From Aromatoleum toluolicum (lineage in GTDB: Bacteria > Pseudomonadota > Gammaproteobacteria > Burkholderiales > Rhodocyclaceae): a stretch of 64,000 nt of DNA. The stretch covers positions 1 through 64,000 of the forward strand of contig NZ_WTVS01000024.1 of NCBI RefSeq assembly GCF_012911005.2. The letters are read 5' to 3'. Below are positions 43,798-52,196 of the stretch, one piece after another. The notes beneath the pieces were generated by a model that searched no databases, was not told where the DNA came from, and worked only from the letters and a program-made list of their open reading frames with translations. Within the stretch, counting starts at the first letter, position 1, and each line of letters starts with the position of its first letter. Position numbers and translations under genes: made by a program.

Positions 43798-44127
43798 TCA
43801 ACGCGCGGGAGCCGGAGGCGGAACGACGATCACGGTGTCGCCACCGGTCTTGCCGCGCTCACCCTGGGCTCCGGTATCGCCGGTGGAACCGGTTGATCCT
43901 TGTGCTCCGGTGTACCCGGTCGATCCGGTTTCCCCGGTAGATCCTGTCGACCCGGTGGGCCCCATCTGCCCGGTCATTCCGGTGGCGCCAGGGGCACCTG
44001 CGGGGCCGGCGGGTCCCGGGACGGGCGCTGGAGCCGGAGCCGGGGCCGGCGTCACGACCGTCGACTTTTCACACGCGCTCAAGGCTAGCGCCATCAATGC
44101 CGCTGAAAAAATTATCGAGTACTTCAT
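43798..44127 (-). CDS. Collagen-like (Gly-X-Y) lipoprotein
   Basis: The 109-residue protein has a lipoprotein signal with lipobox LSAC (Cys19) and a Pro/Ala linker ([19 protein letters not shown]). About nineteen uninterrupted Gly-X-Y triplets follow, rich in Thr and Ser ([19 protein letters not shown]). The end is hydrophobic and Pro-rich. The GXY tract could form a collagen-type triple helix on the outer membrane. It sits just upstream of the fibre cluster. [12 protein letters not shown] is the preferred start. Confidence 0.85.
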
Positions 44128-44453
44128 CTGAATTCCTTTGGAGTGTTGGTCAACAACCGCTCTCTTGGGGAGATTCGCGGTCAGCTGGACGTGCGATTTG
44201 AAAATACGCGATACCCGCGCCGTGTTCCGTTCGCTGGCGAACACAACCGCGCGCGTGTGTGTCCCGGCACCGCCGCGCCACGGATCGACTGCAGCACAAG
44301 GACTGTCGGAGACGGTGAACCCCGGGACTGACTCCCGCAGCGGGGCCCTTCTGTGCGGAACCGTACAGAGCCGACGCCGTTTTCGGCGTAAATATCATTT
44401 GCCGGACGGCAACATTCTCATCAACGGGGCGCAAGTCCAGGGATCGACGAACC
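44128..44453. other. 326-base divergent intergenic region
   Basis: It separates the collagen-like lipoprotein (minus) and a small membrane protein (plus) and should contain both promoters. GC-rich inverted segments around 44310-44345 (CCCCGGGACTGACTCCC) form only weak stems. I see no gene. Confidence 0.4.
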
Positions 44454-45179: not shown

Positions 45180-45197
45180 ACGGCACGGGTCTTGCGA
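45180..45197 (+). promoter_or_regulatory. Sigma-54 promoter of the fibre operon
   Basis: ACGGCACGGGTCTTGCGA matches the sigma-54 consensus YTGGCACG-N4-TTGCW with GG at 45182-45183 and GC at 45194-45195, spaced by exactly 10 bases. Transcription should start near 45207, about 48 bases before the start codon. A sigma-54 activator is encoded in the same cluster. Confidence 0.82.
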
Positions 45198-45254: not shown

Positions 45255-46688
45255 ATGAGGAAGACTCTGATCTCAGCCGCAATCGGGCTGGCCTTTGGTC
45301 TCGCCGGGCAGGTGTGGGCGAATCCCGTGAATACCGTCAGCGATGTCACGGACACCAATACGCAAACCGCCACCGCAACCGCAACGCAGGGGGGCGACAC
45401 CAGCCCGCAGGCGAACGAGTTCTCGACGGCGACGCAGGACAACTCGACGAGCAACACCGACAACTCGAACCAGGGCAACAACAGCTCCACCACCGACAAT
45501 TCGAATCAAGGCAACAACAGTTCCACCAACAGCGCCGACAGTTCGAATCAGGGTAACGACAATTCGACGAGCAGTACCGACAATTCGAACCAGGGCAACA
45601 ACAGCTCCACCAATAGTGCCGACAGTTCGAACCAGGGCAATAACAACTCCACCAACAGCGCCGACAGCTCGAATCAGGGCAACGACAATTCGACGCACAC
45701 CAACACCAGCAGCGCCGACGGCGACAACCGCGACAACGAAGGCACGGCGGCGGCCGAGGGTTTCGGCAGCACGGCAGCCAACAATGGCTCGAGTTCGACG
45801 GCGAATTTCAATAACGCGTTCAACACGACGCACGTAATGGCCCTGTCGACACTGACCGGTACGGTCAGCGGTGTATCGGTGAGCGGTCTCGGCAACATCG
45901 CGACGAACAACGGCAATGCCAACGGCGGAGCGGGCGCAGCCGGCGGGGCTGGCAGCGGAGGCGACGCGACGGGCGGCGCAGCTGCAGGTATGGGTGGTTC
46001 CGGTGGTGCGGCATCCGGCGCGCGCGGCGGTGCTGGCAGCAATGGCGGCGATGGTTCAAGTGGCACTGCGTCGACCGGCGAGGCAAACGGCGCAACCGGC
46101 GCAACCGGCGGCAATGCGGGTCCCGCGCGAGCCAACGGTGGTGACGGCAGCGCATCGGTTGGCGATACGACGGCCAGCAACGGTTCGTCCGGCGGGGCGG
46201 CTACGGTTACACCGTCCCCTCTGCCGGGTAGCGCGACTGCAACCGGCGGGGATGGTACCGCGGGTGACTCGACGGCGGGCGCCAGCAGCAGCACGGCAAC
46301 CGGCGGGAATGGCGGCACGGCCAGCAATACCGCGGGAGCCGGCGGCAACGGCGGTACGGCGACCAGCGGCGATGCCTCGACGGGTAGCGCGACAGGCGGC
46401 AATGGCGGCAGTGGCGGCAACGGCGGCACCAACACCGCAGGTACCGGCGGCGACGGCGGCACGAACACCGGCGGAATGGCGACGGGCGGAACCGGCACCG
46501 GTGGCGAAGGCGGCATGGGCGGAGCCGGCGGCACCGCGATGGTCGATGCGGGGACCTTCAACATGTCCAATACCATCAGCGGCAGTTTCACCAACGGCGC
46601 CGGCATCATCGTCAATGCCCAGAACAGCGGCATCGGTGCACTGGTGCAGCAAAGCGTGAATGTGCAGGCAAACCTGACAGTCAGGTAA
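45255..46688 (+). CDS. Secreted repeat-rich candidate fibre (amyloid-like) protein
   Basis: The 477-residue protein has a signal peptide (to about Ala22). A Thr/Asn/Gln-rich segment leads into six repeats built on SNQGN-NST (residues about 69-150). A transition region contains STLTGTVSGVSVSGLGNIAT, and a 200-residue Gly/Ala/Ser/Thr tract follows. The hydrophobic C-terminus is GIIVNAQNSGIGALVQQSVN followed by VQANLTV. There are no Cys residues, no anchor and very few charged residues. Asn/Gln repeats plus this composition are typical of functional amyloids. It is the first gene after a sigma-54 promoter. GGGGAA serves as ribosome site. Confidence 0.75.
   Translation: MRKTLISAAIGLAFGLAGQVWANPVNTVSDVTDTNTQTATATATQGGDTSPQANEFSTATQDNSTSNTDNSNQGNNSSTTDNSNQGNNSSTNSADSSNQGNDNSTSSTDNSNQGNNSSTNSADSSNQGNNNSTNSADSSNQGNDNSTHTNTSSADGDNRDNEGTAAAEGFGSTAANNGSSSTANFNNAFNTTHVMALSTLTGTVSGVSVSGLGNIATNNGNANGGAGAAGGAGSGGDATGGAAAGMGGSGGAASGARGGAGSNGGDGSSGTASTGEANGATGATGGNAGPARANGGDGSASVGDTTASNGSSGGAATVTPSPLPGSATATGGDGTAGDSTAGASSSTATGGNGGTASNTAGAGGNGGTATSGDASTGSATGGNGGSGGNGGTNTAGTGGDGGTNTGGMATGGTGTGGEGGMGGAGGTAMVDAGTFNMSNTISGSFTNGAGIIVNAQNSGIGALVQQSVNVQANLTVR
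45459..45699 (+). repeat. In-gene tandem repeat array (about 42-bp units)
   Basis: Six in-frame units of 36-42 bases encode the D(N/S)SNQGN(N/D)(N/S)ST-type repeat of the candidate fibre protein. Units differ mainly by silent or conservative changes (Ser/Asn, Asp/Asn). This suggests selection on the protein sequence and growth by unequal crossing-over. Confidence 0.8.
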
Positions 46689-46757: not shown

Positions 46758-47144
46758 ATGAAACAGGTACTGCACTTGCTCGCCCTGGGCATCGCGCTGG
46801 CGCTGATGTACGGCACGGCCGTGCCTGCGTGGGCCGATGACCTGGTGATGCTGGGTGATGCCGAGGAACTCTCGGTGCAGGAGCCGGCGTCAAGGCTGCT
46901 GGGAGCGCCGGTACTCGATGAGGCGGCGCTTTCCGGTCTGCGTGGCGGCGCCGACACGCATAGCAGTGAAATACGCGCGATCGGCGCGGTGAGCGAGATT
47001 TCGGTTTCGGATGCCGCAACCGGGCACAACCTCATTACCGGCGGTGCGCTTGCCGGTGCGAGCGGGGTGCCGATGTTCATCCAGAACAGCGGAAACGGGG
47101 TCCTGATCCAGAATGCGGTGATCCTGAATGTCGAAGTGAATTGA
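46758..47144 (+). CDS. Small secreted protein with double-glycine motif
   Basis: The 128-residue product has a Sec signal peptide (to Ala26). A 38-residue pro-segment ends in the motif VLDEAALSGLRGG (residues 52-64). Counting back from the Gly pair, Leu occupies -4, -7 and -12, the pattern of C39-cleaved bacteriocin leaders. The mature part contains SSEIRAIGAVSEISVSDAAT and the VPMFIQNSGNGVLIQNAVIL end. This resembles the QNSG-V-Q end of the fibre protein. A candidate minor fibre subunit or nucleator. GAGGAG precedes the ATG. Confidence 0.7.
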   Translation: MKQVLHLLALGIALALMYGTAVPAWADDLVMLGDAEELSVQEPASRLLGAPVLDEAALSGLRGGADTHSSEIRAIGAVSEISVSDAATGHNLITGGALAGASGVPMFIQNSGNGVLIQNAVILNVEVN

Positions 47145-47154
47145 CGAGGCGGCG

Positions 47155-47844
47155 ATGAACGTCCGCGCGTGGTTTTCCGTCCTCATGCTGCCCTGCTGCC
47201 TGCTCGAGCCTGCCCTCGCGGATTCGCCGGGGATACTGGGCCCGGCCGGGAACAGTTACGCGGTACCGGTGACGAGCCTCAAGGGCGCGCGCTTTGTGTC
47301 GACGCTGCGCCAGCAATATGACTTCAGTTGCGGCTCGGCGGCGGTCGCAACCTTGCTGACGCATCACTATGGTCTGAAAGTCGACGAGGTCGAGGTCTTC
47401 AAACATATGTTCGAACGCGGAGACCAGGCGAAGATTCAGCGCGAGGGCTTTTCCATGCTTGACATGAAGCTCTTTCTCGATGGCAAGGGCTTCCGCGCCG
47501 AAGGTGTGCGCGTATCGCTCGACCAACTGGCCGAGGCCGCCGTGCCGGCGATCGCGCTGGTCAAGGAGAACGGGTATTCGCATTTTGTCGTCGTGAAAGG
47601 CGTGCGACCGAACGCGGTGGTTATCGGCGACCCTGCCCTGGGCACGCGCGTGCTTCGTCGCAACGACTTCGAGAAGTTCTGGACAAACGGCATCCTGCTC
47701 GTGATCAACAACAGGGTCGATCTCGCGCACTTCAATCGCGAGCGGGACTGGCAGGTACGACCGGCGGCGCCACTCGGCAACGGGGTTCGGGGGGCGAACA
47801 GCATGGACGTGCAGATGCTCCGTCCCGGCCCGATGGACCATTGA
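47155..47844 (+). CDS. Periplasmic C39-family cysteine peptidase (FapD-like)
   Basis: The 229-residue protein has a signal peptide (to about residue 22) and a complete C39 peptidase domain. It has Gln53/54 and Cys59 in RQQYDFSCGSAAVATLL, His143 in GYSHFVVVKGV, and Asp159 in VVIGDPALGTRVL. It is not fused to an ABC transporter, so it acts alone in the periplasm, as FapD does in the Pseudomonas Fap system. It lies between two genes whose products carry double-glycine motifs, the natural targets of C39 peptidases. It begins 10 bases after the preceding stop. Confidence 0.88.
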   Translation: MNVRAWFSVLMLPCCLLEPALADSPGILGPAGNSYAVPVTSLKGARFVSTLRQQYDFSCGSAAVATLLTHHYGLKVDEVEVFKHMFERGDQAKIQREGFSMLDMKLFLDGKGFRAEGVRVSLDQLAEAAVPAIALVKENGYSHFVVVKGVRPNAVVIGDPALGTRVLRRNDFEKFWTNGILLVINNRVDLAHFNRERDWQVRPAAPLGNGVRGANSMDVQMLRPGPMDH

Positions 47845-47855
47845 GCGAAACGACC

Positions 47856-48578
47856 ATGATCGCGCCGCGGCCGGGACGACTTTACAGACTGCTCGCCTGC
47901 GCCGTCGTGGCGGCAGGAATTCCGCGGCTCGCGATGCCGGTTCAGCAGGACGCCCTCCAGCCCGGGCGCTTCGGACACGTGGCCGAACAGGTTCCGCAGC
48001 ATGCTGCGGCGTTGCAACACCCGGGATTGATCCCGGCACCGCAGGGTGCGGATCGGATCGAGCGCGCTTCGCCCGGCGCGCGAGCCCCCGATCAGGCCGA
48101 ATCCGGTGGCCTTGCCGGGATCAATTCCCCGGGTGCAGGAGAATCTCTCCTGTTTGCCGGCGTGACCGTGCTCGATGACGCGGTGATGGATGGCCTGAGG
48201 GGGGGATTCGAGACCCCCGGCGGCCTGATGCTGTCCTTCGGCATCGAGCGTCTCGTCTATATCAACGGCGAGTTGCTGAGCACGACCAGCCTGAACGTTG
48301 CGGATCTCGGCACGCTGGTCGGCGGGAGCGCGGAAGCCGCGAAGGCGCTGACGGTGGGAAGCACTGTCGGCCTGATCCAGAACGGGCCGAACAACACCTT
48401 CGATGCGAGCATGATCTCGTCCGGTGCCTTCGCGACGGTGATCCAGAACACCCTGAACGATCAGACGATACTCTCCGTCACGACCATCAACGCCACGGTG
48501 AACAGCATGGACATGCTGCAGGCCAACCGTATCGGCGACTCGCTCAGAAGCACGGTTAACAGCGCGCTTTTCAGATAG
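47856..48578 (+). CDS. Second secreted double-glycine protein
   Basis: The 240-residue product starts with a hydrophobic segment (RLYRLLACAVVAAGIPRLAM) that may be a signal peptide or anchor. A long Pro/Ala/Gln linker follows. Then comes VLDDAVMDGLRGG (residues 105-117), the same motif as in the 128-residue protein, with Leu/Met at -4, -7 and -12. The part after the cut site is beta-prone (GLMLSFGIERLVYINGELLS, GAFATVIQNTLNDQTILSVT) and polar. A TTG at 47841 is an alternative start. The function is inferred from context. Confidence 0.68.
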   Translation: MIAPRPGRLYRLLACAVVAAGIPRLAMPVQQDALQPGRFGHVAEQVPQHAAALQHPGLIPAPQGADRIERASPGARAPDQAESGGLAGINSPGAGESLLFAGVTVLDDAVMDGLRGGFETPGGLMLSFGIERLVYINGELLSTTSLNVADLGTLVGGSAEAAKALTVGSTVGLIQNGPNNTFDASMISSGAFATVIQNTLNDQTILSVTTINATVNSMDMLQANRIGDSLRSTVNSALFR

Positions 48579-48633: not shown

Positions 48634-49959
48634 TCAGAGCTGGAGCGGCATGCGCAGGGTGAGCTGGAGATCGGGCGCGTCCTCGGTGAGCCCTGCGCCG
48701 ATCGTCAGATTGAGCGTATTGCCCGAATTGAGCCTGTACGAGTAGCCGAGCAGCAAGGTTCCCAATTGCGCGCGGATCGAAGTCGTCGGCCGCCGCCCGC
48801 CTACCCTGACCTTGCCTACCGACAGGTGATCGTAGCCGATGCTGAACGACGATCGGTCGTTCAGCGCGAGGCCCATGCCGAAGTTGAAGCCAACCGCGCC
48901 GCCCGGCTCCACTTTCCCCAGATCGAGATCCCCGTCATTGGTCTTCTGCTTGACGTTGTCGCGCGCAAAGCTGTGCTGATAGCTCACGCCGCCAAAAAAC
49001 ACCACCGGGTCGGACGGCAGGAGCACGGTGAGCCCTGGCTGGACCGTGTAGAAGCCGGACCCGGTCGGCATCTCGGTCTGCAGCCCGGTGCCGGTGGTGC
49101 CGCGTATCGTGCGGTCGACCTTGACCTCGAAGGGGTCCTTGCCGGTGCGCGTCTTGACCCGCAGCGAGGCGATGTAGTACGGATCCTCCGCGCCCCCGTC
49201 GTTGAGCTGATAGCGGCCGGTGAATTCGATGTCTCCAAGGCCGTGGCCATCGACGTCGAACGAGGTATCGGCCGCGGCGCCGGCGCCGACCGGCCGGCTG
49301 ACGCTGGTATCTGTGCGATATACATAGGGAATCTTGGCTTCAAGTTCGAAGCGGTTGGTGATTCCGCGCCGCACCGTCAATGCGCCGATGAAGGTGTCGC
49401 TCTTCACCTCGCGCACGTCGATCAGTCCGATCACGATCGCCGGGATAATCGTGTATCCGACCAGCGCGACGCGATTGCTGGATGAGTGGGCGTACTGCAG
49501 CGAAGGTTCGACCAACCACTTGCCCGGCGGAGTCAGGACACCGGGCTGCTCGAAGATCGGCGCGACCGCGGGCGGGCGGTTCTCCTTGGGGCGTTCGGGC
49601 GCCTGCCCGACCGGTTTCGGCGCCTGCGCCAGCTGCTGCGGGGGACGCGGCGGGGAAACCGGCTCGGGCGGCGTCGCTGATGGCGCGGCGACCGCGCCCG
49701 CCGATGCCGTTCCCCGCCCCCTGACCTCGCCGATATCGCGGGTGCGCTGCATGCCGTCGATCAGCATCTGCTGCTGCGCGAGATCACGTTTGAGCGCTTC
49801 GATCTGACGGGCCTGCTCCTCGATCCGCTCCTTGAGCGCTGCCATCGATGCCGTGAAGCTCCCCTCATCGGCATGGGCGGCGGAGCCGCAGGTGGCGATC
49901 ACAAGGCCGGCCAGACTGCATCCCAGCATCCGTCCTTGACGATGTGCCAGTGCTTTCAT
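48634..49959 (-). CDS. Outer-membrane beta-barrel with coiled-coil N-terminus (FapF-like)
   Basis: The 441-residue product has a signal peptide (to Ala30). A coiled coil follows (about 35-70; MAALKERIEEQARQIEALKR), then a Pro/Ala linker (about 75-140) and a beta-barrel domain of alternating residues (GKWLVEPSLQYAHSSSNRVA, YQLNDGGAEDPYYIASLRVK), ending in QLTLRMPLQL. This layout equals FapF, the trimeric pore that exports Fap fibre subunits. The barrel also resembles the MetA-type porin family. GGGGGAA precedes the ATG. It starts 52 bases after the activator gene stop. Confidence 0.78.
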   Translation of the reverse strand: MKALAHRQGRMLGCSLAGLVIATCGSAAHADEGSFTASMAALKERIEEQARQIEALKRDLAQQQMLIDGMQRTRDIGEVRGRGTASAGAVAAPSATPPEPVSPPRPPQQLAQAPKPVGQAPERPKENRPPAVAPIFEQPGVLTPPGKWLVEPSLQYAHSSSNRVALVGYTIIPAIVIGLIDVREVKSDTFIGALTVRRGITNRFELEAKIPYVYRTDTSVSRPVGAGAAADTSFDVDGHGLGDIEFTGRYQLNDGGAEDPYYIASLRVKTRTGKDPFEVKVDRTIRGTTGTGLQTEMPTGSGFYTVQPGLTVLLPSDPVVFFGGVSYQHSFARDNVKQKTNDGDLDLGKVEPGGAVGFNFGMGLALNDRSSFSIGYDHLSVGKVRVGGRRPTTSIRAQLGTLLLGYSYRLNSGNTLNLTIGAGLTEDAPDLQLTLRMPLQL

Positions 49960-50011: not shown

Positions 50012-51343
50012 CTACAGGACAATCTTCAGGCGATCGATCATGCGATACAGCGTGACGCGCGAAACGCCCAGGTGGCGCGCCACTGCCGACACATTGTTCT
50101 GGTACCTGCTCAAGCTGCTCTCGATGACTTCCCTCTCCACCGTCGAGCGGACTTCATCCAGGGTCTGACCGGATGCATCGACGTCCGACGAGGGAAGTCC
50201 CAGATCCGCGGCACTGATCAGCTTGCTTTCGGACATGACCATCGCGCGCTGCACACGGTTGATCAGTTCCCGAACGTTCCCCGGCCACGGGTATCCGCAC
50301 ATCGCGCGGAACGCTTCCGAACTGAAGCCTTTCACCTGCGGACTCTTCTGATGCTGGTTGGCCTTGAAGATGGCGGTTGCCAGCAGCGCAATATCCTGTT
50401 CGCGCTCGCGCAGCGGTGGGACGCCGAGATGCAGCACGTTGAGCCGGTAGAAGAGGTCCTCGCGGAACTGCCCTTCGGCGACGGCGCGGCTCAGATCCCT
50501 GTGGGTCGCCGCGATCACCCGCACGTTCACCCGCACCCGCTCGGTCGAGCCGACCCGCACGATGGTCTTTTCCTGCACAAAGCGCAGCAGGTTCGCCTGC
50601 AGGTCAAGCGGCAGGTCGCCGATTTCGTCGAGGAACAACACCCCCTCGTTGGCCGCCTCGACGTTGCCGATCTTGCGCTGGTGCGCACCGGTGAAGGCCC
50701 CGCGCTCATGCCCGAAAAGCTCGGATTGAATGAGATTGGGCGCGATCGCGCCACAATTCATCGCGACGAACGGCCCGTTGGCACGCTCCGAGTGATGATG
50801 GATGGCGCGGGCGACCAGTTCCTTGCCGGTGCCGGACTCGCCGCCGATCAGCACCGGGGCATCCACCGTCACGATCTTGTCGAGTTGGCGGTACAGCTGG
50901 AGCATCTTCGGGCAGCGTCCGGTCATCCCGTACCGCCCGATCTCATCGTCCTGTTCGACGATGCTCCTGCAGATCAGCGCCTTGCCATGCGCGTGACCCA
51001 AGGTCATGACCAGACGATCGCGGTCCAGCGGCAGCGTGTGAAAGTCATGAAAACTGCGCAGCACCATTGGCGCCAGGCTCTGGTTGTGCAGCAGTTCGCG
51101 GCCCAGGATTGCGATCCATTCGATGTCATGCCGGGCGATCAGGGATTCCAGCTCGCGGGGCGACCACGACTGCGGTGAGGTAAAGGCCACCAGGCCGACC
51201 AGTGGATGACTTCCCGCCAATACCTTGTTGGCGGCCTCGACGGTCGACGCGACCGCGAAATCCCAATCGGGGAGGCCCAGATCATTCAATCCGGCACGGA
51301 CCATGCCGTTGCTGTCGAGTAATACGCCCTTCCGCTTTTCCAT
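50012..51343 (-). CDS. VpsR-like sigma-54-dependent activator
   Basis: The 443-residue protein has a degenerate N-terminal receiver-like domain (res 1-135). The usual phospho-acceptor position is not Asp (LVGLVAFTSPQ), as in VpsR. The AAA+ domain has Walker A GGESGTGKELVARAIH, the sigma-54 contact loop HERGAFTGA, and Walker B GVLFLDEIGDLPLD. The C-terminal Fis-type HTH is NNVSAVARHLGVSRVTLYRM. VpsR-type activators respond to c-di-GMP and control biofilm matrix genes. This one probably activates the sigma-54 promoter at 45180. The start is set by a GAGG 8 bases before ATG. Confidence 0.9.
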   Translation of the reverse strand: MEKRKGVLLDSNGMVRAGLNDLGLPDWDFAVASTVEAANKVLAGSHPLVGLVAFTSPQSWSPRELESLIARHDIEWIAILGRELLHNQSLAPMVLRSFHDFHTLPLDRDRLVMTLGHAHGKALICRSIVEQDDEIGRYGMTGRCPKMLQLYRQLDKIVTVDAPVLIGGESGTGKELVARAIHHHSERANGPFVAMNCGAIAPNLIQSELFGHERGAFTGAHQRKIGNVEAANEGVLFLDEIGDLPLDLQANLLRFVQEKTIVRVGSTERVRVNVRVIAATHRDLSRAVAEGQFREDLFYRLNVLHLGVPPLREREQDIALLATAIFKANQHQKSPQVKGFSSEAFRAMCGYPWPGNVRELINRVQRAMVMSESKLISAADLGLPSSDVDASGQTLDEVRSTVEREVIESSLSRYQNNVSAVARHLGVSRVTLYRMIDRLKIVL

Positions 51344-52196
51344 GACCAACCTCGAAGTCCGGGCCGTACTTGCGCATTCCGGGCATCGGAGACCGTGGCG
51401 CAAGCCCTGCCTCCTGCTCGGGTACGTCCCGCATGCCAGCTCGGGTTCCCGGACCGCAACCACTGATCGGGTTCGCCAGGGAAATGCCCGGCCAACCCAT
51501 TTGCATCAGTCTGCATTTCGCCCGAGCCATTTACGCACGGAGAGGATGCATGAATGATGCCAATCGTCGGGTGTATCCATGCCGGTGTGTGTCGTGATGT
51601 AACAATATGCTTCTGGCATTCGTGCGCGCCATCTAAAAATTCCTATGTATTTTTTTGAAGACATGGTCATGGACTGACGCTCGAAAACGCTCGCAGCACC
51701 CTCGCCTGCTGCGTCACGCTCATCGTTCTCGATGCGCATTGGGGACGGAAATGTCGCCCATGAAATACCGGGGGGTGTGTAGGAAATCGCCGCATTTGAC
51801 GATTATTGGACGACATGGACGCATGGGGGCGAAGGCTTGGGTCAATTGGCCCATTTGCAGCAAGGGGGTGCGATCGGCTGGATGTGGCCGCTCGTGCGCA
51901 TCGCGTGGACGCTGAAATCCGCCTTGAGCGCTTCCCATCGCGCGCCCTGATTATGCTCCAAGCATTTATTTCACCGGAGTGATCGACACCGCATCGATGA
52001 CTCGACGGCACGTGTCAAATTCTTCGACACTAGGCTTCACGGCACACATCGCGGTGCAAGTCGTGCAAATGCCTCATCGGGGGTCGTGCAGGCGGAAAAG
52101 ATGACGGGGTGTGTCGTGGGCATTTCGCGAGCGCGCCGATCAGGGGCAGAATTGGCGGCAAGCGTCGGGAAGCCCGGACTTACCCAAGGAGCACGC
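51344..52196. other. 853-base intergenic region, no gene seen
   Basis: It separates the sigma-54 activator (minus) and the AI-2E-family permease (plus). Short open frames on both strands (up to about 110 codons) have no ribosome site or sensible product. A short AT-rich segment lies at 51630-51665. An inverted repeat GTGTC-N9-GACAC is present near 52013-52031. I found no sigma-54 site for the activator gene. The size is notable in this dense genome. Confidence 0.45.

Follow-up and report, generated by a model that had tools for sequence, protein, structure and literature searches.

The question raised by one locus of Aromatoleum toluolicum is which proteins serve as substrates for a stand-alone C39 peptidase. 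The locus lies in the 64,000 nucleotides analysed here (positions 1 to 64,000 of contig NZ_WTVS01000024.1, assembly GCF_012911005.2; hereafter the window), where the peptidase gene (47155..47844, + strand) has a gene for a small exported protein on either side, sm1 (46758..47144, +; 128 amino acids, aa) and sm2 (47856..48578, +; 240 aa). The original prediction placed both open reading frames (ORFs) and the C39 gene correctly, and proposed that the two small proteins carry a C39-type leader with a double glycine behind a Sec signal peptide and are processed in the periplasm after export. The locus is a Fap-type fibre-secretion locus, an identity that was overlooked at that time together with a matching leader in FapE. 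We assign a probability of roughly 0.78 to the reading as a whole, namely that FapD, the C39 peptidase of such loci, cuts the leaders of sm1, sm2 and FapE behind the Sec signal.

Both window proteins contain the proposed leader. The text VLDEAALSGLRGG is followed by ADT in sm1, and VLDDAVMDGLRGG is followed by FET in sm2; the leader 12-mers themselves are LDEAALSGLRGG (46914..46949, +) before A and LDDAVMDGLRGG (48171..48206, +) before F, with the predicted cut directly 3' of each. A hydrophobic residue at -12, Leu or Met at -7, a hydrophobic residue at -4, Gly at -2 and a small residue at -1 are found in both, so that the leader rule first proposed is accurate for the window proteins; its omission was the nearly invariant Arg at -3. 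Glu is absent from position -8, which is Ala in sm1 and Val in sm2. The predicted mature N-terminus Ala65 of sm1 follows the Gly pair exactly as proposed, and Phe118 of sm2 is right with the ATG at 47856 (it becomes Phe123 if TTG 47841 is the start). After the predicted cut the mature proteins would have 64 aa (sm1) and about 123 aa (sm2, with IQN/NNQ-type motifs). The N-termini of sm1, sm2, the peptidase and the fibre protein 'big' described below resemble Sec signal peptides by eye, that of sm2 being the least typical.

Conservation was examined in 100 loci: the window, 19 family loci (L035-L053) and the 80 named loci that scored best among at least 589 relatives in one genome-contig scan. 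Hidden Markov models (HMMs) of sm1 and sm2 were made from the parts 3' of the motif only, to limit circularity, with 15 seed members; seeds were picked with the motif already seen, the motif was then cut off, and seeds are counted in the totals. Homologues of sm2 were found in 93 loci and of sm1 in 92 (neither was detected in the seven loci L049-L053, L096 and L127, and sm1 was not detected in L073 either). All 93 sm2 homologues, found with profiles that do not include the motif, contain [L/M]xxxRGG[F/Y/M/I/A]. They represent 89 distinct mature sequences (four pairs are identical), and 90 rows were placed automatically, with L122, L070 and L105 misplaced by domain choice and RGG present in all 93. 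Within these 90 rows Leu/Met is found at -7 in 90, Arg at -3 in 89 and Phe/Tyr at +1 in 88, and position -12 is hydrophobic in 96% and -4 in 76%. The Gly pair is kept in 86 of the 92 sm1 homologues, whose 86 rows show Leu at -7 in 86, Arg at -3 in 74, a hydrophobic -12 in 91% and L/I/V/M/F at -4 in 45%. The expectation that homologues would keep the Gly pair and three hydrophobic positions therefore held for the glycines, for -7 and -12, and for -4 in sm2; hydrophobic -4 as a strict rule in sm1 was rejected (45% of 86 rows). The six sm1 proteins without GG read KRAGA, MRGAG, ERGKA (two), QNGRL and QTGRQ; when they are aligned in this way (by eye), each has Leu seven residues ahead of the cut. 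In the Massilia loci L108 and L128 the sm1 site reads RGK and the sm2 site RGG, which suggests that a single FapD tolerates Lys as well as Gly at -1.

A chance motif was rejected: when the 60 upstream residues were shuffled (300 shuffles) it appeared in a mean of 0.20 and a maximum of 2 of 93 sequences, against 93/93 found, and a profile of the FapE leader (below) ranks sm2 and sm1 first and second. In the two loci missed by the HMMs, L096 and L127, ORFs directly 5' of the peptidase contain VDAAQMGELRGR and VNLEQLSDLRGR, respectively, and L127 also has VSLAEMSDLRGG followed by F on the 3' side. A class search matched 77 of 369 genomes, from which 20 stretches were taken (the 15 strongest and 5 intermediate); in the intermediate loci L180-L184, which belong to other families, an ORF at the sm2 place beside FapD carries RGG in 5/5. 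Loci with the RGG form come from Burkholderiales, Xanthomonadales and a small number of other groups. Since sm1 and sm2 have a C-terminal IQNxxN...IQ stretch in common (hhalign probability 83), the matured proteins may join the fibre. The AlphaFold model of mature sm2 has a pLDDT (predicted local distance difference test) of 73.4 and a pTM (predicted template-modelling score) of 0.55, and no PDB match was found for its fold at E<=0.001.

The peptidase (229 aa, with a signal-peptide-like N-terminus) matches Pfam PF03412 Peptidase_C39 at 1.7e-25 (90 bits), and its best NCBIfam match is FapD NF058616 at 3.8e-42, with 144 bits against an equivalog cut-off of 330. On the opposite strand (48634..49959, -) lies a gene for a FapF-like outer-membrane secretion channel with a coiled coil, a Pro-rich linker and a beta-barrel; it matches NCBIfam FapF NF058560 at 2e-51 (175 bits, cut-off 700) and FapF in the PDB (5o67/5o65) at 1.7e-38 over 309 residues. 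As both scores are below the equivalog cut-offs, the two are homologues of the Pseudomonas proteins and not those proteins proper. The closest named FapD among the matches listed is that of Aromatoleum anaerobium, with 73% identity. Gln53, Cys59, His143 and Asp159 of the peptidase are invariant in alignments of 14 and 27 sequences and nearly so in a 149-row set. For set A2, four (L072, L108, L122, L133) of 31 first-chosen sequences were left out, and set A4 comprises the window and 54 of 59 candidates. In the AlphaFold model of the peptidase the confidently predicted core spans about residues 61-200, and for this core Foldseek gives PCAT1, ComA and LahT peptidase 6mpz, a leader-bound structure, as matches (template-modelling score to target 0.69-0.73). 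Judged by its modelled papain-like C39 fold and by its Cys/His/Asp with Gln, the peptidase is a member of the C39 family. Given a FapD relative with a FapF relative as its reverse-strand neighbour, the locus represents a sister system to Pseudomonas Fap amyloid secretion and not a bacteriocin locus.

The genes of this system occur together. In 14 of 20 further FapD/C39-selected loci (L035-L048, all of the same bacterial family) the full set is present: big-sm1-FapD-sm2 on one strand, and FapF next to a sigma-54 activator on the opposite one. L049 and L050 have FapD, FapF and the activator, L052 has FapD and a weak FapF, L051 and L053 have FapD only, and L054 has none of these. Among 150 genomes of the family, for which up to 17 candidates were scored per genome, sm2 is present in 15, and these coincide with the 15 genomes whose FapD match reaches E 3.3e-66 or better. 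Across the 100 loci FapF is found in 95 and the activator in 53. As in Pseudomonas fapABCDEF, a stand-alone C39 FapD and a coiled-coil/barrel FapF are accompanied by a leader-bearing exported minor protein that adjoins fapD. In contrast to Pseudomonas, the window has FapF on the opposite strand with a sigma-54 activator, its leader ends in RGG instead of RG(R/K), sm1 has no recognised Fap counterpart, and no Fap family model matches its fibre protein, sm1 or sm2. None of these three matches an NCBIfam family at E<=1, thus none is FapC NF058558, and assignment to FapB or FapC with Fap repeats fails. Neither does sm2 match FapE NF058559, although leader and position agree with FapE; that model matches a Pseudomonadaceae FapE at 1.6e-105. 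By its genes the window system resembles Fap, and surface amyloid fibres are predicted.

A leader of matching design is present in FapE itself. A FapE profile of 12 seeds, likewise picked with the motif already seen and then trimmed of it, detects FapE in 44/44 fap-type loci, seeds included. These 44 rows represent 41 distinct loci (L222-L224 are the same as L187, L188 and L194) and 31 distinct leaders; 23 of the 41 (L187-L206, L225-L227) were taken from FapD above the NCBIfam cut-off, and 18 are fap-type loci below the cut-off or unscored. In all 44 rows FapE has Leu/Val/Ile at -12, Leu/Met at -7, Arg at -3 and Gly at -2. Position -1 is Arg in 33 and Lys in 11, position +1 is Tyr in 34 and Phe in 10, Glu is found at -8 in 37 and Leu/Met/Ile at -4 in 43. 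The typical form is LxxxELxxLRG(K/R)|(Y/F), and the Pseudomonadaceae text is IELKDQELAQLRGK followed by Y. The ComA leader consensus is quoted as Leu(-12)-x3-Glu(-8)-Leu(-7) in PMC6363468, and the Pseudomonadaceae FapE leader fits this consensus with the last Gly replaced. A FapE-leader profile made from other operons and without the -1 column ranks sm2 first and sm1 second of 575 ORFs in the window. Conversely, the sm2-leader profile ranks FapE first in 34 of 41 loci and within the first two in 40. We compared FapD clades for residues that would explain Gly versus Arg/Lys at -1; several positions differ, and there was no convincing single one.

The family label Pseudomonadaceae was inferred: genome G311 was chosen by the PrrF RNA family, for which one of 369 genomes scored above the cut-off, and PrrF RNA is one that we take to be Pseudomonas-specific. 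In the family of G311, 32 of 119 genomes are above the FapD cut-off.

According to Rouse et al. (2017; PMC5557850), the FapD target was unclear and canonical C39 sequences are lacking in Fap proteins, the Pseudomonas FapD mutation C38A abolishes FapC secretion, and FapE is the only Fap protein without peptides from its first ~70 residues. Peptides covered FapA-D throughout, and a stretch without peptides was found in the linker of FapF, which makes FapF a possible further target of FapD. We found no statement of an RG(K/R) site in FapE in the portions consulted of the open-licence papers on Fap, Fil and periplasmic C39 peptidases (PMC5557850, PMC6173800, PMC3792158, PMC12822426, PMC6173795, PMC3684753, PMC11784438, PMC6363468); subscription papers and supplements lay outside this scope, and it may be in print elsewhere.

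We propose the following sequence of events. Sec would export 'big', the minor proteins sm1 and sm2, and FapD to the periplasm, where FapD may bind the helical leader (hydrophobic at -12, Leu at -7, often hydrophobic at -4) that follows the signal peptide in sm1 and sm2, and would cut after RGG to give mature proteins that begin with Ala65 (sm1) and Phe118 (sm2). In fap operons the FapD site would be the FapE leader, with Arg or Lys replacing the last Gly. The mature sm1 and sm2 would then be passed to the FapF channel and secreted; their probable role would be to initiate the fibre or to anchor it. A cut that follows Sec export is the natural way to read a peptidase with the C39 residues, the C39 fold and a signal-peptide-like N-terminus; the periplasmic processing put forward at the outset is supported, with the cut itself deduced from sequence.

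Several points weigh against this proposal. The cut, its place and timing, and the roles of the mature proteins are inferred from sequences. Position -4 is poorly conserved among the sm1 homologues, and the FapE-leader profile is less sharp beyond the window: over all loci sm2 is ranked first in 38 of 93 and within five in 70, and sm1 first in 12 of 92 and within five in 43. Distant relatives are under-represented, because the named loci are the best-scoring ones of the scan. Mature sm2 and mature FapE have no homology detectable by hhalign (probability 0.5 and 1.2), so that what ties them together is their leader, position and partners; the two may have inherited the leader from one ancestor while the remainder of each protein changed rapidly, or the leader may have been acquired twice. 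The ends of known C39 substrates listed in PMC6363468 are GG, GA and GS, and Lys/Arg at P1 is not among them. With automatic start choice, the predicted cut falls at residue 39-40 of the FapE precursor in 13 of 20 Pseudomonadaceae loci, as against the reported gap of ~70 residues; in the other 7 it falls at 50-78, counted from upstream Met codons. Lastly, a GG/GA pair stands at one column of mature FapE in 20/20 Pseudomonadaceae rows and in 23 of 41 loci overall.

The last two points belong to the best surviving alternative, which is unlikely though not far-fetched: in true Fap systems the FapD cut would fall in the FapF linker, or in FapE at a GG/GA further on (near residue 70 or past it), and RG(R/K) would have another role. 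Rouse et al. (PMC5557850) indicated GG/GA in FapE and before the FapF barrel, and 32 of 134 FapF ORFs have a full leader-like pattern with RG[GRKA] in the N-terminal part, which in at least L114 and L165 is near the very N-terminus and not at the coil end. Against the later cut in FapE, its best GG/GA column is kept in little more than half of the loci, whereas RG(R/K) is kept in 41/41; against the cut in FapF, the window FapF, whose leader-like motif is only partial, ranks 298th of 575 with the FapE-leader profile. By eye, FapF proteins of Cupriavidus, Luteibacter and others (L065, L071, L118, L124 and L134 among them) have a leader-like RGG motif about where the periplasmic coiled coil ends. 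A FapD cut at this place could shut the channel, and we keep this as a hint from the sequences.

A second alternative, which we consider rather improbable, is that the leader is a docking or chaperone signal, by which the C39 protein holds the subunits unfolded and presents them to FapF without cutting, as catalytically inactive C39-like domains do in certain type I exporters. Such domains are described as substrate chaperones (PMC5557850), and leader binding and cutting are separable in principle. The invariance of the catalytic Cys, His, Asp and Gln noted above speaks for an active enzyme, as does the loss of secretion in FapD C38A, and the fixed Gly-Gly with Phe/Tyr at +1 resembles a scissile site. 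That sm1 and sm2 are antimicrobial precursors of a bacteriocin or RiPP (ribosomally synthesized and post-translationally modified peptide) locus, as the mere presence of a C39 peptidase and double-glycine leaders would allow, was rejected as having hardly any chance of being true, since the peptidase stands alone without an ABC (ATP-binding cassette) part, the channel is FapF-like, mature sm2 has about 123 aa with IQN/NNQ-type motifs, and no ABC exporter was found among the eight neighbouring proteins scanned.

With the bacteriocin exporters of the AMS/PCAT type (ComA, LahT, PCAT1) the window system shares the C39 fold, the catalytic residues and a leader with hydrophobic -12, -7 and often -4 and a GG end. 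These exporters are C39-ABC fusions that act on a leader at the extreme N-terminus in the cytosol, whereas in the window the leader stands behind a signal-peptide-like N-terminus, so that the substrates have a Sec-type signal first; the window leaders have in addition a conserved Arg at -3, and the substrates are exported proteins of the sizes given above. Two further C39 matches were noted in the genome of the window, G000:C226:37498-37875 and G000:C238:18163-18549, one in a 1067-aa frame and one, weak, in a 313-aa frame.

The Fil system of Acinetobacter and Pseudomonadaceae likewise combines a C39 peptidase (FilB) with a barrel related to FapF (FilC) and with FilA, an exported DUF6160 protein whose leader, for example MDDSALAGVTGQ, comes immediately behind the signal peptide. 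It differs in Gln at -1 and Thr or Ser at -3 of FilA, in its other accessory genes, and in that sm1 and sm2 are not DUF6160 proteins. Many Pseudomonadaceae genomes have a second stand-alone C39 at ~100-122 bits, and in 8 of 14 non-Fap C39 loci (L208-L211 and L213-L216 of L208-L221; Pseudomonadaceae and one other family), where the peptidase is accompanied by a FapF-related barrel, an exported neighbour has, immediately behind its signal peptide, a leader of the MDDSALAGVTGQ type that ends in TGQ or SGQ. Pfam assigns DUF6160 to each FilA-type protein that was scanned, namely those of L208, L209 and L216 and the Acinetobacter FilA in L207. The sm2-leader profile ranks the FilA-type neighbour within three in 8/8 loci, and the FapE profile ranks it 2nd to 29th. 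Neighbours in L212, L217 and L221 read Leu-x4-(Met/Leu)-xx-(Met/Ile/Val)-x-Ala-Gly and that in L220 reads LSDREMTQTTGD (by eye); a leader-bearing neighbour of C39 was not recognised in L218, L219 or L051-L053. FilA-type proteins beside FilB-type peptidases seem to follow a matching leader rule in the 8 loci, which we take as a lead. In L207, an Acinetobacter baumannii plasmid, the FilB frame is broken by a stop and the FilA and FilC frames are open. Curli (type VIII secretion) also has Sec-exported amyloid subunits and a dedicated outer-membrane pore; unlike the window system, it is not known to have a C39 peptidase, and its pore is of another family.

The first gene of the locus, 'big' (45255..46688, +), encodes an exported Asn/Gly-rich protein of 477 aa, the likely major fibre subunit, whose N-terminus MRKTLISAAIGLAFGLAGQVWANP is signal-peptide-like by eye. 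It has no match in Pfam, and a homologue is found at the matching position in L035-L048. The leader motif is absent from 'big' in 20/20 gene copies, and its C-terminus resembles sm1 only weakly (hhalign probability 18) and sm2 and FapE not at all (0.3 each). L038, L043, L045, L047 and L048 have a tandem pair of the large Asn/Gly-rich fibre-type gene. A sigma-54 promoter core, GGCAC-N5-TTGC (45182..45195, +), is found 73 bases 5' of the ATG at 45255; it is the only exact match to the core consensus in the window, yet 1.00 is expected by chance, and a loose search of the window (2 mismatches) gave 29 where 30.4 were expected. GGCA[CT]-N5-TTGC is at 72-74 bases 5' of the 'big' start in 7 of 20 gene copies (including close relatives and two copies in one locus), against a background of 0.021 per 400 bases. 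The conserved spacing alone is informative, and it fits control by the neighbouring VpsR-type activator, a sigma-54 enhancer-binding protein and likely regulator (50012..51463, -; PF00158 at 1.7e-70, PF20161 VpsR at 1.2e-13 and HTH_8 at 2.9e-9 in Pfam), whose gene adjoins that of FapF in L035-L048. Near the fibre locus, 43798-44244 (-) encodes a small protein, exported and lipoprotein-like, in which collagen-type GxY repeats are found (PF01391, 3.1e-09).

From the sequences we predict that a relaxed double-glycine leader is the site at which peptidases of the FapD type cut proteins of the FapE, sm1 and sm2 types in the periplasm. Because FapC is no longer secreted with FapD C38A and the N-terminus of FapE seems to be lost (PMC5557850), the cutting of minor proteins may license secretion through FapF. 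On balance we lean, with less assurance than for the locus itself, towards a general second export signal in Gram-negative bacteria: a helical leader of the bacteriocin type behind the Sec signal peptide (hydrophobic at -12, Leu at -7, usually hydrophobic at -4, Gly at -2 and a relaxed -1 of Gly, Arg, Lys, Gln or Ala) that would be removed by a periplasmic C39 peptidase before secretion through a barrel of the FapF family. FapE, FilA/DUF6160 and sm1/sm2 would all be substrates, and in some lineages the junction of the FapF coil and linker would be cut too. RGG would be the unmasked form of the motif found here, which reveals the masked RGK/RGR form in FapE. The question of the FapD target thus becomes a single-site test, and the leader offers a rule by which substrates of stand-alone C39 peptidases may be recognised.

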